Source: a virus. Taken from it: a DNA stretch of 38,060 nt. A model generated the notes under the pieces. That model made no database searches. It saw only the letters and a program-made list of their open reading frames with translations, and had not been told where the DNA came from. Shown in pieces: positions 7,479-38,060 of this stretch. A program made the position numbers and the translations under genes. How positions within the stretch are numbered: position 1 is the stretch's first letter; each line of letters begins with the position of its first letter. The stretch covers positions 1 through 38,060 of IMG/VR virus record IMGVR_UViG_3300022751_000030; one strand, written 5' to 3'.

Positions 7479-7524
7479 ATGCCCGTATTGTCTTGATTAT
7501 ATCAGTAAGGATAGGCATTAACAA
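7479..7524 (-). promoter_or_regulatory. Late promoter with ATACGGGCAT element
   Basis: Minus strand: -35 TTGTTA (7519-7524), 17-base spacer, TGA then TATAAT (7496-7501), 7 bases, ATACGGGCAT (7479-7488). The same arrangement occurs at 11578, 15038, 19725 and 24189. Confidence 0.75.
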
Positions 7525-11577: not shown

Positions 11578-11603
11578 ATGCCCGTATTAACTTGATTATA
11601 CCA
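11578..11603 (-). promoter_or_regulatory. Late promoter with ATACGGGCAT element
   Basis: Minus strand: TGG then TATAAT (11595-11600), 7 bases, ATACGGGCAT (11578-11587). No good -35 at 17 bases; the extended -10 probably compensates. It lies 13 bases from the adaptor start codon, so the element would be in the 5' leader of the adaptor message. Confidence 0.7.
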
Positions 11604-15037: not shown

Positions 15038-15063
15038 ATGCCCGTATTGAGTTCATTATAGCA
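15038..15063 (-). promoter_or_regulatory. Late promoter with ATACGGGCAT element
   Basis: Minus strand: TGC then TATAAT (15055-15060), 7 bases, ATACGGGCAT (15038-15047). The stop codon of the glycosyltransferase gene lies inside this -10 box, so the promoter marks the start of the fibre operon. Confidence 0.75.
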
Positions 15064-19724: not shown

Positions 19725-19749
19725 ATGCCCGTATCTATGTTCTATTTTA
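19725..19749 (-). promoter_or_regulatory. Late promoter with ATACGGGCAT element
   Basis: Minus strand: TAAAAT (19744-19749), 9 bases, ATACGGGCAT (19725-19734). It overlaps the stop codon of the upstream HNH gene and lies 13 bases before the ATG at 19712. Confidence 0.6.
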
Positions 19750-20277: not shown

Positions 20278-20304
20278 CAAAAAAGGGTCAAGTGAATGAC
20301 CCTT
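20278..20304 (-). terminator. Intrinsic terminator after the capsid gene
   Basis: Minus strand: an 8-bp stem AAGGGTCA (20297-20304) with TGACCCTT (20283-20290), 6-base loop, followed by TTTTTT (20278-20283 region). It lies 21 bases after the capsid stop codon and should end the terminase-portal-capsid message or reduce readthrough. Confidence 0.9.
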
Positions 20305-20324: not shown

Positions 20325-21209
20325 CTACGATTTTAATACGAAGCCGAAGTTAGTACGGAGTGCATTGTGTCCATAAAGTACATCAACTGTTACTAACCAA
20401 CCGAGGTGTTCCTGTTTGTACTGCGCTTGAGTACGAGGAGTCTGTTGGAGAGCAATCGCCCATGCTTCCTTGTGGAAGAATAGGTGGTTGTATTCGTCGG
20501 TTACAGTGTCAAGATAAACCAGGTTCTGGCTCATGTAAACGTCTGCACCGTAAATACGACCAATCTTACCGTTGCGGATTGAGTTGTCATCGCCACCGAC
20601 ACCGAGGGCGTCGTAACGAACATACTTGTCAATCGCGAGCAGCTCAGATTCACCCTTAGGTGCAACCACGATGCTTCGGTCTGATCGAGGAGCTTTGTTT
20701 TCGCTTAGGTAACGGTTTACCGTAAGAATGAGGTTGTCATTCAAGGCAGTACCGTAGGCACCGTAAGCTTGTCCAGCTGTTTTCCATGTGCTGGTCATGT
20801 TTGTTGCCAAGTCAGAGTCAATCTTTTCTGAGATCGCGTAAGCGGCTGCTTTAGTGTAGTCGCTACGAAGATCGTAGACTGATTGAATCTTAACGAGGTC
20901 TTCTACGATGAATGAGCTTTCATAGTGTTTGTTCAAAACAATCGTAGTCTTAGTTTCAGTGTTGTAGTTGAGTGTGACAACGGTGTTCTGAGATTTCAAG
21001 TTAGCTGTAATAGCCGAAACGTTAGGAATCTCAAGAGTCTGTCCACCAGCTTGTACGTCTGCGTCGTAGTGCTTGATCAATGGGAGGAGTACGAGGTTTG
21101 ATTTAACAAACATAAGTACTTCACGTGACCAAATGTTAGGACGGAAGACGTTAGCGGCAGTAGCACCGATGTTCACAGCACCCGAACCGTATAGTCCAGT
21201 TGTTGCCAT
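20325..21209 (-). CDS. Major capsid protein
   Basis: 294 residues, of the usual size for an HK97-fold coat protein without extra domains. RPNIWSREVLMFVKSNLVLL at the N-terminus, KHYESSFIVEDLVKIQSVYD (E-loop-like segment followed by a long helix), YAISEKIDSDLATNM and the C-terminal GHNALRTNFGFVLKS resemble coat proteins of podoviruses with P22-like organisation. Supported by the position after portal and scaffold and by a terminator directly downstream. GGAG is 8 bases before the ATG. Confidence 0.8.
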   Translation of the reverse strand: MATTGLYGSGAVNIGATAANVFRPNIWSREVLMFVKSNLVLLPLIKHYDADVQAGGQTLEIPNVSAITANLKSQNTVVTLNYNTETKTTIVLNKHYESSFIVEDLVKIQSVYDLRSDYTKAAAYAISEKIDSDLATNMTSTWKTAGQAYGAYGTALNDNLILTVNRYLSENKAPRSDRSIVVAPKGESELLAIDKYVRYDALGVGGDDNSIRNGKIGRIYGADVYMSQNLVYLDTVTDEYNHLFFHKEAWAIALQQTPRTQAQYKQEHLGWLVTVDVLYGHNALRTNFGFVLKS

Positions 21210-21231: not shown

Positions 21232-22014
21232 TTATTGTGCCATTACCTTATTGATCTCGTCGTAGTGTTTAACGAACCACTCCTGGCTGTTGCTCGCTAC
21301 TAGTTGATCAACGTTTTGTGGGGTAATCGCCGCACTGGCTGCGCCAGAATTGACTGCATTACCTCTAGGTACTGACGCTTGTTGTTTGTGGGCTAAGGAT
21401 TCGAGACCTTCTCGTTTCCCTTGTGATTTCAAAGCGGCAGGATTTTCAGCGACTGCCATAGCATAGCTCGCTTTTAAGATAGCTTCTGGAGAGCCATATA
21501 GACCTGATTCAACGGCAATCTTAGCCATATCAGCTTCGTATGCCTTAGCGTCAGGGTTTGAGTCCCAGAATTCTCTAATAGAGTCTTTGACCTCCATACG
21601 TTGTAGACGTTTCAAGACTTCGGGGTTTTGCCCTGTTGCCTCTGCTACTTGTGTAGCCGATTCGTCTGACATAGAGGACATCGTTCGTTCGAGTTCACTA
21701 GCCTTATTTGCTTTACTGTGCATCAGCTTCTCGGCGTTCATAGCCATTTTAGCTGCTTTTCTAGCGTTGTCGCTATCGAGTTCTAAGCCTTTCGTTTCAG
21801 CAAACTTTGCGAGTTGTTCATCTTCTTCAGATGGCTCACTGGTTGCCTCAGCCTCTTGTCCCTCTTCGGTGGTTTGTTCAACCGCTGTTGCTTGTTCCGT
21901 CTCGTCTGGTTCTGAAGCAGTTACGGCCATTCCTTGATCGTCAATAGCGATCCCATTAATGGTCTGTACTTCGCCAGATTCAACAGGAGCGTCAGTTGTG
22001 GTTTCTTCGTCCAT
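21232..22014 (-). CDS. Capsid scaffold protein
   Basis: A 260-residue protein. The first 75 residues are extremely acidic (MDEETTTDAPVESGEVQTIN, EEDEQLAKFAETKGLELDSD) and the rest is helical with heptads; the C-terminus contains SQEWFVKHYDEINKVMAQ, which may be the coat-binding segment. Size, charge, helicity and location between portal and coat fit a scaffold. An RNA element with two long complementary stems lies just upstream (22033-22094). Confidence 0.75.
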   Translation of the reverse strand: MDEETTTDAPVESGEVQTINGIAIDDQGMAVTASEPDETEQATAVEQTTEEGQEAEATSEPSEEDEQLAKFAETKGLELDSDNARKAAKMAMNAEKLMHSKANKASELERTMSSMSDESATQVAEATGQNPEVLKRLQRMEVKDSIREFWDSNPDAKAYEADMAKIAVESGLYGSPEAILKASYAMAVAENPAALKSQGKREGLESLAHKQQASVPRGNAVNSGAASAAITPQNVDQLVASNSQEWFVKHYDEINKVMAQ

Positions 22015-22032
22015 CGTTGTACCTTTCTTATC

Positions 22033-22094
22033 ACTAGCCCGAATAGTAGCTGGTTTAATACGGGCTAGTATTAATAATATTCCAGCTACTATTC
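22033..22094 (-). promoter_or_regulatory. Potential pseudoknot or alternating hairpins in the scaffold leader
   Basis: Two perfect complementary pairs interleave: ACTAGCCCG (22033-22041) with CGGGCTAGT (22061-22069), 9 bp, and 22041-22053 with 22082-22094, 13 bp (GAATAGTAGCTGG and its complement). Order A-B-A'-B' gives either an H-type pseudoknot or two mutually exclusive hairpins in the 92-base gap before the scaffold ATG at 22014. The CGGGCTAG sequences also resemble the late ATACGGGCAT element. Confidence 0.7.
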
Positions 22095-22105
22095 CGAATA
22101 ATGAT

Positions 22106-22324
22106 CTACAACTTCTTTACACCCCCTACGACACTCTGAATATGCTCAACAACAAGACGAATGCCGCGTGCTTGTTGTGTGAAGTCTCTAGCAAGTAATG
22201 GGTCTCTCTCAGCCTGCTCGTGTTGGTCATCAATCATGCTGTCGAGAGCTTTAACGAAATACTGCCCTTCTTCTGTTTTAAGGAAATTAGCATATCCAGC
22301 AGCTAGTTCTTTAGGGATGTTCAT
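22106..22324 (-). CDS. Small hypothetical protein between portal and scaffold
   Basis: A 72-residue helical protein, MNIPKELAAGYANFLKTEEG then DSMIDDQHEQAERDPLLARD and a C-terminal hydrophobic-helical VVEHIQSVVGGVKKL. The ATG overlaps the portal stop (ATGA). No family recognised. Position suggests a head morphogenesis function. Confidence 0.6.
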   Translation of the reverse strand: MNIPKELAAGYANFLKTEEGQYFVKALDSMIDDQHEQAERDPLLARDFTQQARGIRLVVEHIQSVVGGVKKL

Positions 22325-24177
22325 GCGCCCCCTTGCATATTGCGAAGTTTAGCTACTTTTGTAGCCATGTCGATTTCATGTTGTTCGGCTGCCTGATCCA
22401 TAGCTTGTTGATCTCTCTGAGCTTTAATCTCTAAGCTAGGGTCTGGAGGAGGAGCCATAGCCTCTGGAGGCATTCCGCCCATCATCCCAGCCATCTCAGG
22501 AGGAAGGCCCATACCAGGGTCCATAGGAGGCATTCCGCCAGCCATTGGATCACCGCCAGGCATGCCTTGAGGGGCCATGAGTAGTTCTACCTCATCTGGG
22601 TCAAGATCGAATGAGCGAGCAAGTACTAACTTCTTTAACTCGGCTTGATTCACCTCAGGGTCACCAAGGAACGCCCCTAGTAGTTCTTTGGCGTTCTCTG
22701 CCTGACGTTGCTTGTCGTTGTTGATAGTCGCCTCTAGTTGGACACGAGGCTCATAGTCACCTTTAAACTCTGAAGGATCGAACTCTTCCCATCGTGCTCC
22801 ATCTTTCCCAATAATACGAACCATCATAGGCTCAGTGACGTACAGTTGGATCATCCTGAAGACAATCTTAGCTACCTGGTAGAAATATCCGTTTTCAATC
22901 TGCGTTACCTTAAGAGAGAAGCGTTGGCCAGCTCCTGCAACCTGAGCGTTAATCTCAGTGGCTGTGGTAGAACCGCCTCCCTTCTCTCCTACGCCCTTCA
23001 CTACTTCATTAGAGGCAGTTGTCTCTCGTATCTCGTTCTTAAGGTTCTGGCGTTCTAAGAATGCGTCCTGTGGGATTGGTCGCTGTGGGATAGGCATTAA
23101 AGCGTTAGCCTCTACTGGGTAGACTGCACCAGGAAGGTTCTCAATCTCGCTAAGGAGGTGAGCGTACTTAGGGTCAAGTGTGTACATCTGGTTCAGAGTG
23201 TAAGTGATTGAGTCAATATTCTGGTTGGTAATGTCGTTTAATAGTTCCTGCTCGTCAGCGATAATATCAATCTCGCCTTTAGCATAGAAGAGAGACTCAT
23301 CTGTATAGTCACGAGCGTCTGCAAATGGCAAGAGGCCCTTAGGATACTCTGTACCGTTCGCTTCGTCCTTTGCTTTGTAGTAGTTGTCAGAGTCTTCGAT
23401 AATGACCGAACGGTTTGCAACAGAGACTGTCTTATCCAATGTCCAGTATTCAATAACCTCAATTTGGTTCTTCTCAGGCTCGATAACTGTAGACCCGTAC
23501 CACATATCTTTCTGTTGTTTGTCTGTATTCTCGCCTTGAGAACCGCCTTCAAACTTAATCTTATCAAGATTGGTATACTTCTTCTTCATTGGGTAATTAC
23601 CCTCAGCGTCAGGGTCTTTAGAGAAGTCTACAATCTCGAACTCTTCTAGCTCACTCTTCGATACAAGGTAGCGCCTACCACAGTATCTCGCGTTGCCCAG
23701 ACTTGAAGCGGTTGGGTCGATGAAGAAGTCCCTAATCGGAACGTTAATGAGAACTGGGTGGTCATTCTCCCATGCGAAGTAATCAACAGCGGTTCCAAGC
23801 TTAAACATGTTGCGGCCTGTGTTAATGATCTTCAGAGACCACTGGTCGCAGTCCCAGTAGAAGTCAAGTAGTGAGTTTAGGATGTCTGTCTTCTGATCCT
23901 GTCGCTCTTGTGGTGGGAGGTAGTTGAACTTAGGCTTAGCCCCGAAGAGTCCAGAGGTCAAAGTCTCTACTGTGCTAAAAGACATAGGGACGAAAGTATC
24001 AGTGATGCCTTGGTAGCCACGCTTTGTGCGCTGACCATTATAAAGACGGTAGCTATCTTCCCACCGTTTATGCCATGATCCCTGAGTGTATTCCCAGGCT
24101 CGGTTGAAGTCTTCCACCACTGTATTTAGCGTCGTATCTACAGTGTCAGATTTCTTTGAGGTCTTTTGAGTAGGCAT
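22321..24177 (-). CDS. Portal protein
   Basis: 618 residues, the usual size of podovirus portals. N-terminal WHKRWEDSYRLYNGQRTKRG and VPMSFSTVETLTSGLFG, then NSLLDFYWDCDQWSLKIINT, the central DFFIDPTASSLGNARYCGRR (the widespread DxxFDPxA portal motif) and ETTASNEVVKGVGEKGGGST followed by a long stem helix. The C-terminal 90 residues are Met/Pro/Gly-rich low complexity (residues about 530-585) then a helix, probably inside the head. Directly follows terL. Late promoter 24189 lies 12 bases upstream. Confidence 0.8.
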   Translation of the reverse strand: MPTQKTSKKSDTVDTTLNTVVEDFNRAWEYTQGSWHKRWEDSYRLYNGQRTKRGYQGITDTFVPMSFSTVETLTSGLFGAKPKFNYLPPQERQDQKTDILNSLLDFYWDCDQWSLKIINTGRNMFKLGTAVDYFAWENDHPVLINVPIRDFFIDPTASSLGNARYCGRRYLVSKSELEEFEIVDFSKDPDAEGNYPMKKKYTNLDKIKFEGGSQGENTDKQQKDMWYGSTVIEPEKNQIEVIEYWTLDKTVSVANRSVIIEDSDNYYKAKDEANGTEYPKGLLPFADARDYTDESLFYAKGEIDIIADEQELLNDITNQNIDSITYTLNQMYTLDPKYAHLLSEIENLPGAVYPVEANALMPIPQRPIPQDAFLERQNLKNEIRETTASNEVVKGVGEKGGGSTTATEINAQVAGAGQRFSLKVTQIENGYFYQVAKIVFRMIQLYVTEPMMVRIIGKDGARWEEFDPSEFKGDYEPRVQLEATINNDKQRQAENAKELLGAFLGDPEVNQAELKKLVLARSFDLDPDEVELLMAPQGMPGGDPMAGGMPPMDPGMGLPPEMAGMMGGMPPEAMAPPPDPSLEIKAQRDQQAMDQAAEQHEIDMATKVAKLRNMQGGA

Positions 24178-24188
24178 TTAACATCCTA

Positions 24189-24218
24189 ATACCCGTATCC
24201 AATGGTGGAATTATAGCA
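24189..24218 (-). promoter_or_regulatory. Late promoter with ATACGGGTAT element
   Basis: Minus strand: TGC then TATAAT (24210-24215), 11 bases, ATACGGGTAT (24189-24198, one base different from the other copies). Starts the portal-to-capsid message that ends at 20278. Confidence 0.7.
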
Positions 24219-24240
24219 CGAGCTGTATGAACTGAATAGA

Positions 24241-24311
24241 GTGATTTACAAGAGAGCTGGGTTTGGACACGAAGTATTAAATTACTTAGTCCCAGCCCTC
24301 GTGTAAATCAC
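24241..24311 (-). promoter_or_regulatory. Long nested hairpin between terL and portal
   Basis: Arms 24241-24261 and 24291-24311 pair over 21 positions with one mismatch (24251/24301) and one wobble, and the loop contains a further 5-bp stem (AAGTA 24272-24276 with TACTT 24283-24287). The TerL stop codon lies inside the right arm. There is no T-run, so an RNase III processing site, a leader structure or a packaging signal is more likely than a simple terminator. Confidence 0.75.
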
Positions 24312-31135: not shown

Positions 31136-31167
31136 ATATTCTCCTTTTATCTATTAGAGGACAGATG

Positions 31168-31236
31168 TCCCGAGGTAGGAATCGAACCTACGCCACTTTC
31201 GTCATCATAACGGCACTACCACTATGCTACTCGGGG
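31168..31236 (-). tRNA. tRNA-like gene with abnormal anticodon arm
   Basis: Minus strand: acceptor stem CCCCGAG/CTCGGGA (6 of 7 pairs), D-arm GCAT-AGTGGTA-GTGC, T-arm GTAGG-TTCGATT-CCTAC, a length of 69 bases and no encoded CCA. The sequence between D- and T-arm (21 bases) cannot form a normal 5-bp stem with a 7-base loop and U33; the best stem is CGT/ACG. The isotype is therefore not assigned. It may be a degenerate tRNA or a tRNA-mimicking domain of the adjoining RNA. Confidence 0.65.
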
Positions 31237-36624: not shown

Positions 36625-36714
36625 TTAAGGTGGGTCGCAAATATTGTGGAATACGCAACAGTGAGCGAGGGTATGACGTAAAACGGAAGCAAAAAGGCTA
36701 AAAACTTTCTTCAC
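36625..36714 (-). pseudogene. Truncated secreted-protein leader copy
   Basis: A 29-codon frame starting at a GTG that lies in the same position as the real gene at 38021. It begins MKKVFSLFASVLRHTLAHCC, signal-peptide-like, and then stops. The upstream 49 bases (36705-36753) are identical to 38012-38060. Looks like a duplicated 5' end with the rest lost, or a leader peptide. Confidence 0.45.
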
Positions 36715-36753
36715 TTCATTCTTTCGTGTGGTAAAATTATCGTAACCTAGAGT
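36705..36753. repeat. 49-base repeat, identical to 38012-38060
   Basis: Identical to the last 49 bases of the window, and its first 29 bases also match 98-126. The repeat covers the translation start of the right-end gene plus upstream DNA. Just right of it (36769-36778) is TAAGCGAG-type sequence resembling the early promoter element, next to TTGAGT but without a proper -10. Confidence 0.95.
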
Positions 36754-37525: not shown

Positions 37526-38021
37526 AGAGACTTGCGTCCACCTCTGCTAGGATTCCAACGTTTACCCAAGACTCATCCATAAAGTGTTCGTGAAAGTACC
37601 ACCTTACAAAGTCGATGCTATTAATCGTTTTTGGCTCTGTTCCAACTACCTTATTAGAAATGGATACAGCGTGTAGGTAGGCAAAAGAATTAACCCTTTC
37701 TTCCTCGGTGAAACGCTTAGGGAACATCCAGATAATGTAGTCGATACTCTCCCTGTTGCTTCCAGCTGTCCAGCCATATTGTGAGATAAGCTGTTCGTTG
37801 CTAGGAACGGTCTCTACGGCGCTTTCTGGAGCGTTCTGAGGCACTTCTTCGACAATAGGTGTCTCGATGGCCACTTCAACTGGCTGGAACGATTCTGGGG
37901 CTTCTACGGCCGTATATCCCTGCGCTTGGGGTTGTTCTTGTGAGCGCGTGGCTAAGGTAGCCGTACCGATAGAGGCGACTGTTAGGACTGAGATGGATGC
38001 GATGATTATTGCTTTCTTCAC
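37518..38021 (-). CDS. Secreted or lipoprotein-like surface protein
   Basis: 167 residues from a GTG at 38021. A signal peptide covers residues 1-25 (MKKAIIIASISVLTVASIGT, cleavage near TLA), then a Glu/Pro-rich linker (about 30-75) and a helical C-terminal domain (QYGWTAGSNRESIDYIIWMF, RFTEEERVNSFAYLHAVSIS). The linker is typical of exported proteins in small-genome bacteria. No family recognised. Promoter 147-175 drives it if the molecule is closed at 1/37915. An envelope-associated function in the infected cell is inferred. Confidence 0.7.
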   Translation of the reverse strand: MKKAIIIASISVLTVASIGTATLATRSQEQPQAQGYTAVEAPESFQPVEVAIETPIVEEVPQNAPESAVETVPSNEQLISQYGWTAGSNRESIDYIIWMFPKRFTEEERVNSFAYLHAVSISNKVVGTEPKTINSIDFVRWYFHEHFMDESWVNVGILAEVDASLYE

Positions 38022-38060
38022 TTCATTCTTTCGTGTGGTAAAATTATCGTAACCTAGAGT
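37915..38060. repeat. Right copy of the end repeat with divergent 20-base tail
   Basis: 37915-38040 equals 1-126. The last 20 bases (38041-38060) equal 36734-36753 instead of the sequence after base 126. The right end is therefore either an assembly artefact at a shared 29-base sequence or a real recombinant between repeat copies. Confidence 0.95.

Follow-up and report, generated by a model that had tools for sequence, protein, structure and literature searches.

Some phages lack multiple strong promoters and yet produce capsid and scaffold protein in large excess over portal protein from a single transcript; how they do so is only partly understood. The subject here is the leader of a scaffold-like gene in the 38,060-base virus record IMGVR_UViG_3300022751_000030 (IMG/VR), which at its full length is called the window here. 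The minus strand carries the head genes, namely those for the terminase large subunit and the portal (22321–24177), a 72-aa ORF (22106–22324), a scaffold-like gene (260 aa, 21232–22014) and the major capsid gene (20325–21209; phrog_267, E 4e-41). The scaffold-like protein gave no HMM match, and the gene is named as such from its position and the acidic look of its translation. A Shine-Dalgarno-like AAAGG, read from the sequence, lies in front of it at 22022–22026 on the same strand. The leader that separates the 72-aa ORF from the scaffold gene (22015–22105) holds two interleaved stems.

Directly 3' of the capsid gene, a terminator-like hairpin (AAGGGTCATTCACTTGACCCTT, then TTTT) was seen on the minus strand at 20283–20304. 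The record has a direct repeat at its ends (1–146 and 37915–38060, with 126 identical bases at 1–126 and 37915–38040), which is either a terminal repeat or the mark of a circular assembly, and a related 49-base copy lies at 36705–36753. A tRNA gene was found at 31167–31236 on the minus strand (Rfam RF00005, 39.4 bits). HNH endonuclease genes are dispersed in the genome (7022–7468, 19747–20223, 31766–32194 and 34577–34993; minus strand), and the late region holds two of these genes.

Interleaved stems and a competing fold in the scaffold leader

The sequence-only reading had described two perfect stems of 9 and 13 bp in the order A-B-A'-B', and a check of the sequence found both where they had been placed. 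As given on the plus strand, A is ACTAGCCCG (22033–22041), B is GAATAGTAGCTGG (22041–22053), A' is CGGGCTAGT (22061–22069) and B' is CCAGCTACTATTC (22082–22094). The functional strand of the element is the minus strand, the same as that of the genes. On this strand, S1 (13 bp, 22094–22082 with 22053–22041) consists of the 5' arm GAAUAGUAGCUGG (22082–22094) and the 3' arm CCAGCUACUAUUC (22041–22053), both assigned from sequence and covariation. It interleaves with the pseudoknot stem S2 (9 bp, 22069–22061 with 22041–22033), and base 22041 is common to both. The strands of S2 were assigned from covariation: the 5' strand ACUAGCCCG (22061–22069) lies within the S1 loop, and the 3' strand CGGGCUAGU (22033–22041) is late-element-like and shared with a third helix, P0. 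Among the inverted repeats found in the 38-kb window, the one made by the S1 arms is the longest. The fold of the minus-strand leader was computed at −32.5 kcal/mol (z = −4.98), and none of 200 shuffled sequences was as stable. In a scan for A-B-A'-B' arrangements (3798 scan windows, both strands), the scaffold leader ranked second with a score of 57.8, against a 99.9th percentile of 47.8, and its score was reached by none of 100 shuffles. Another intergenic hairpin, at 24241–24311, ranked first.

About 70 relatives were collected from IMG/VR; a capsid search gave 70, and when the capsids of L042 and L034 served as further queries, mostly the same relatives came back. The order small ORF, scaffold gene, capsid gene was maintained in most of them. 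Most readable leaders kept both helices in the A-B-A'-B' form, with stem sequences that were almost unrelated. Nine relatives were aligned with plain MAFFT; 99.4% of the S1 and S2 cells in this alignment were paired, and 9 pairs had changed on both sides. Covariation was 0.485, compared with 0.186 after shuffling and no more than 0.076 after sliding. Among 25 divergent leaders, 63 of the 75 S2 pairs outside the conserved core were Watson-Crick, compared with 40.2 ± 3.3 when strands were exchanged between leaders (0/5000), and the positions flanking the GCC core showed up to three Watson-Crick types. The leader thus has two interleaved helices supported by covariation, as in an H-type pseudoknot.

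The remaining helices were also assigned from covariation on the minus strand. P0 pairs AUCAUUA (22099–22105), directly after the UAG stop of the 72-aa ORF, with UAGUGAU (22030–22036), which overlaps S2. P2 is an apical hairpin in which UUAAUAC (22068–22074) pairs with GUAUUAA (22055–22061). Together, P0, S1 and P2 were 97.1% paired in the aligned relatives, with 12 pairs changed on both sides. Bases 22036–22033 are common to P0 and S2, and column 84 of the alignment holds a base that covaries with its S2 partner and also with its P0 partner. Because P0 and S2 share a 3' strand, and P2 and S2 share a loop strand, the hairpin (P0-S1-P2) and the pseudoknot (S1-S2) are mutually exclusive; both are conserved, except that the predicted fold of a second group of leaders, class II, has no P0. 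In 57 sources, a covariance model built on S1 and P2 matched scaffold leaders or their reverse complement and nothing else.

The sequence-only reading had offered a pseudoknot or a switch between two hairpins, which would fall if the two stems were not conserved in related phages. This did not happen, since S1, S2 and a competing stem all covary. The idea of alternative folds came close, but the rivals of S2 are P0, a helix with the 5' flank, and the P2 apical hairpin, and not simply S1. We regard it as close to certain that the pseudoknot and the competing hairpin are conserved as constraints on the sequence.

By estimate, the energies of the two folds mostly differed by no more than about 6 kcal/mol, given a generic pseudoknot penalty of 9.6 kcal/mol; in one outlier with an incomplete leader sequence (L008), the hairpin was favoured by about 12 kcal/mol. 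The hairpin fold paired part of the S2 3' strand with the 5' flank in 20 of 25 leaders. Of the 27 leaders tested, 17 had an S1 that started 8–13 nt past the upstream stop. P0-type leaders show this spacing although their stem sequences are unrelated, and in the window S1 starts about 12 nt past the stop of the 72-aa ORF. In the class II leaders (L004, L012, L014 and others), S1 lies partly within the upstream gene; these look like constitutive pseudoknots, so that a switch would not be universal. The Shine-Dalgarno sequence of the scaffold gene is buried in neither fold. A terminator-like site, as expected of a transcription attenuator, is absent from 22010–22110 on the minus strand.

No Rfam family scored above its gathering threshold for the scaffold leader, phage records searched at the nucleotide level with the leader and the head region yielded no useful match, and our literature searches found no description of this element. 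The annotated cyanophage relatives A-4L and Pf-WMP3 have no such leader; their scaffold gene overlaps the portal gene or starts 4 nt after it. The hosts of this phage group are uncultured. Two different relatives (L181 and L183) occur within one Candidatus Saccharibacteria MAG (JACDEK), possibly a host hint or possibly misbinning, and this one MAG with two related contigs, the sole support for Saccharibacteria as host, is too weak for an assignment.

The late element and the antisense loop

Transcription starts were predicted from −10 boxes. The predicted late promoters in the window consist of TATAAT, a few bases and then AATACGGGC, the late element (LE), immediately before late genes, and the distance of the LE from the −10 box is nearly constant (10–12 bases). 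On the minus strand, TATAAT is followed by TTAATACGGGC (11580–11590) before a 223-aa gene, by TCAATACGGGC (15040–15050) before a 242-aa gene and by ACAATACGGGC (7481–7491) before a 148-aa HNH gene, and TAAAAT is followed by TAGATACGGGC (19727–19737) before a 123-aa gene. An LE-like promoter (TAAAAT, then GTAAGACGGGC) was also seen on the plus strand at 183–203, just inside the left terminal repeat region and before a short ORF.

The loop of the scaffold leader (window sequence UUAAUACGGGC) is antisense to the bases at which transcription from the predicted late promoters would begin. That the loops hold copies of the late element had been noticed before, and in substance this was correct. At 22055–22065 it is the plus strand that matches exactly over 11 bases (TTAATACGGGC); therefore the leader RNA carries the LE complement, and the minus strand of these positions, GCCCGUAUUAA, is the anti-LE strand. 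The earlier description had stated neither that the link is antisense in RNA nor that it spans several late promoters. When sense-strand complements of the loop are ranked across the genome, the top four are the late-promoter starts at 11590, 15050, 7491 and 19737, and the computed loop–LE duplexes amount to −15 to −18 kcal/mol. An antisense promoter at the leader was considered and rejected, since no −10 box lies at the proper distance on the plus strand.

The LE varies among relatives (AACATGGGC in the genome of L008, AACTGGGC in G007, AACTGAG in G008 and AACAAGGCGGG in G017), and the loop varies in step. When loops were permuted between lineages, a loop matched its own LE with a score of 19.1, compared with 14.7 ± 0.8 for permuted loops (0/20000), some of the promoters being hand-added; when the set was restricted to automated promoters, the values were 17.8 and 14.3 ± 0.75 (1/20000). 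The control region upstream of the promoters gave no loop match in the permutation test. In five P2-type lineages, the match extended beyond the core (GGGC), and the own loop exceeded letter-shuffled loops in 5000 of 5000 trials; compared with permuted lineages, this beyond-core match was weak (4/120). The complementarity is thus held by compensatory change, with the exception of L183, in which the pseudoknot is present and none of three detected promoters has an LE. Structure-less genomes have too few recognisable promoters for a comparison of structure and LE co-occurrence.

The scaffold leader had been called the only intergenic gap in the head operon; a further non-coding stretch, 24178–24307, lies before the portal gene and contains a related element. 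This element is the long hairpin at 24241–24311 (minus strand), whose loop strand GUGUCCAA at 24270–24263 pairs with the late element UUGGAUAC (24195–24202) at the predicted portal mRNA start, downstream of the portal promoter −10 box TATAAT (extended TGC, 24210–24215). In nine relatives, pairing of both helices was complete (100%) and included compensatory changes. Both partners would be present only in transcripts entering upstream of the portal promoter. We consider this portal-side element related to the scaffold leader in design.

In one relative, L058, S1 and the loop are absent and a TATAAT box stands in their place, followed by the downstream GGGCGAGCAATTTAA/GGGCGAGCAATTTAATTTTAAGAGGAGG as in its relative L183, which retains the structure. 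This swap suggests that structure and promoter can serve one end, the expression of scaffold and capsid.

A proposed two-state leader and its alternatives

From its position and conservation, the element is likely to regulate scaffold–capsid expression, and control of the scaffold:capsid:portal ratio is plausible. The reading that we favour, tentatively, is that the leader is an undescribed cis-acting two-state RNA element, which, on a read-through late transcript, would control the scaffold–capsid portion. The long hairpin would be state 1 and the pseudoknot state 2. Given the general size of a ribosome footprint, a ribosome at the upstream stop would span P0 and not S1. One that terminates at the stop of the 72-aa ORF would cover P0, spare S1 and tip the RNA to the pseudoknot; without ribosomes, the hairpin would re-form. 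The contested 3' strand, 18 nt upstream of the start codon, resembles the scaffold gene's version of the LE. Its pairing state may set ribosome access, 5'-end stability or both, and would thereby set scaffold and capsid output relative to portal. Least certain, other late mRNAs may bind the loop in trans, which is possible because the loop is antisense to their LE, and so link scaffold output to the late-mRNA level. Three steps of this model are inferred, namely the sensing of ribosomes, the exposure of the LE and the pairing in trans. A phage-wide RNA circuit is possible but somewhat doubtful: late mRNAs would share a lineage-specific 5' element, the scaffold leader (and in some lineages the portal leader) would carry its antisense in a ribosome-sensitive pseudoknot switch, and head-protein synthesis would respond through base pairing to the amounts of other late mRNAs.

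A serious alternative, which we nevertheless think unlikely, is mRNA processing or stability. Either an enzyme such as RNase III would cleave the P0-S1 helix or 5' decay would be halted by the pseudoknot, giving a stable scaffold–capsid mRNA with a 5' end like those of the promoter-made late mRNAs. P0 and S1 form a near-continuous helix of about 20 bp, and the TATAAT box of L058 replaces the structure and leaves the LE-like strand in place, as if it did the same job. In T4, the gene 32 transcripts with a leader pseudoknot are the most stable mRNAs (PMC3014915). Processing alone, however, needs neither the competing pseudoknot nor the match between loop and LE, and the stem of class II leaders has just about 11–16 bp.

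We also doubt that the leader is primarily a trans-acting antisense RNA, whose loop would pair with and control the 5' ends of other late mRNAs while S2 served as a cis lock. The co-variation of loop and LE past the GGGC core, the genome-wide specificity of their complementarity and the strength of the computed duplexes are consistent with this. However, L183 has the structure and detected promoters without an LE, the cis S2 and the trans duplexes are similar in strength, and the match could reflect the scaffold leader's own LE copy needing capture in cis.

It seems improbable that the leader is an operator for autogenous control of translation, to which scaffold or capsid protein would bind in a gp32-like manner. 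The element lies in the leader directly upstream of the scaffold gene, as such an operator would, and scaffold autoregulation in P22 is a parallel. The gp32 leader pseudoknot of T4 offers another precedent (PMC3014915). Autogenous control would leave the LE match, the portal element and the spacing to the upstream stop unexplained, and the stem sequences vary almost freely. A DNA-level site, with the LE bound by a transcription factor of the phage and an inverted copy of it in the leader, would suit the nearly constant spacing of LE and −10 box but is very improbable, since no −10 box is positioned to serve the inverted copy on the plus strand and compensatory changes in four helices require single-stranded pairing.

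Comparison with known systems

If a large group of uncultured phages conserves a two-state leader with an antisense loop, this would constitute a new family of RNA and offer a route that can be tested. Candidate structured RNAs, some of them in phages, have been found in metagenomes via covariation (PMC2864571). The scaffold leader was likewise recognised by covariation and has no Rfam match. The nearest described case is gene 32 of T4, T2 and RB69, in which an H-type leader pseudoknot controls translation and the transcript is unusually stable (PMC3014915). As judged from sequence, the scaffold leader similarly has an H-type pseudoknot in front of a phage gene. Gene 32 differs in encoding an ssDNA-binding protein and not a scaffold, and no sequence relation was found. 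To our knowledge, the gene 32 leader has neither a competing conserved hairpin nor an antisense link to other phage mRNAs.

The scaffold gene of P22 is under post-transcriptional autoregulation, and post-transcriptional control is what we propose for the scaffold gene here; we know of no pseudoknot leader in P22. The RNase III processing sites of T7-like phages are long hairpins between late genes, as is the hairpin state of the scaffold leader, which additionally has the competing pseudoknot and the conserved antisense loop. In amino-acid attenuators, translation is coupled to the leader and the position of a ribosome selects between RNA folds. Ribosome position could choose the alternative fold in the scaffold leader in the same way. 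This leader, however, has no terminator stem with a U-tract, and its proposed sensor would be the termination of a structural-operon gene instead of stalling on a leader peptide.
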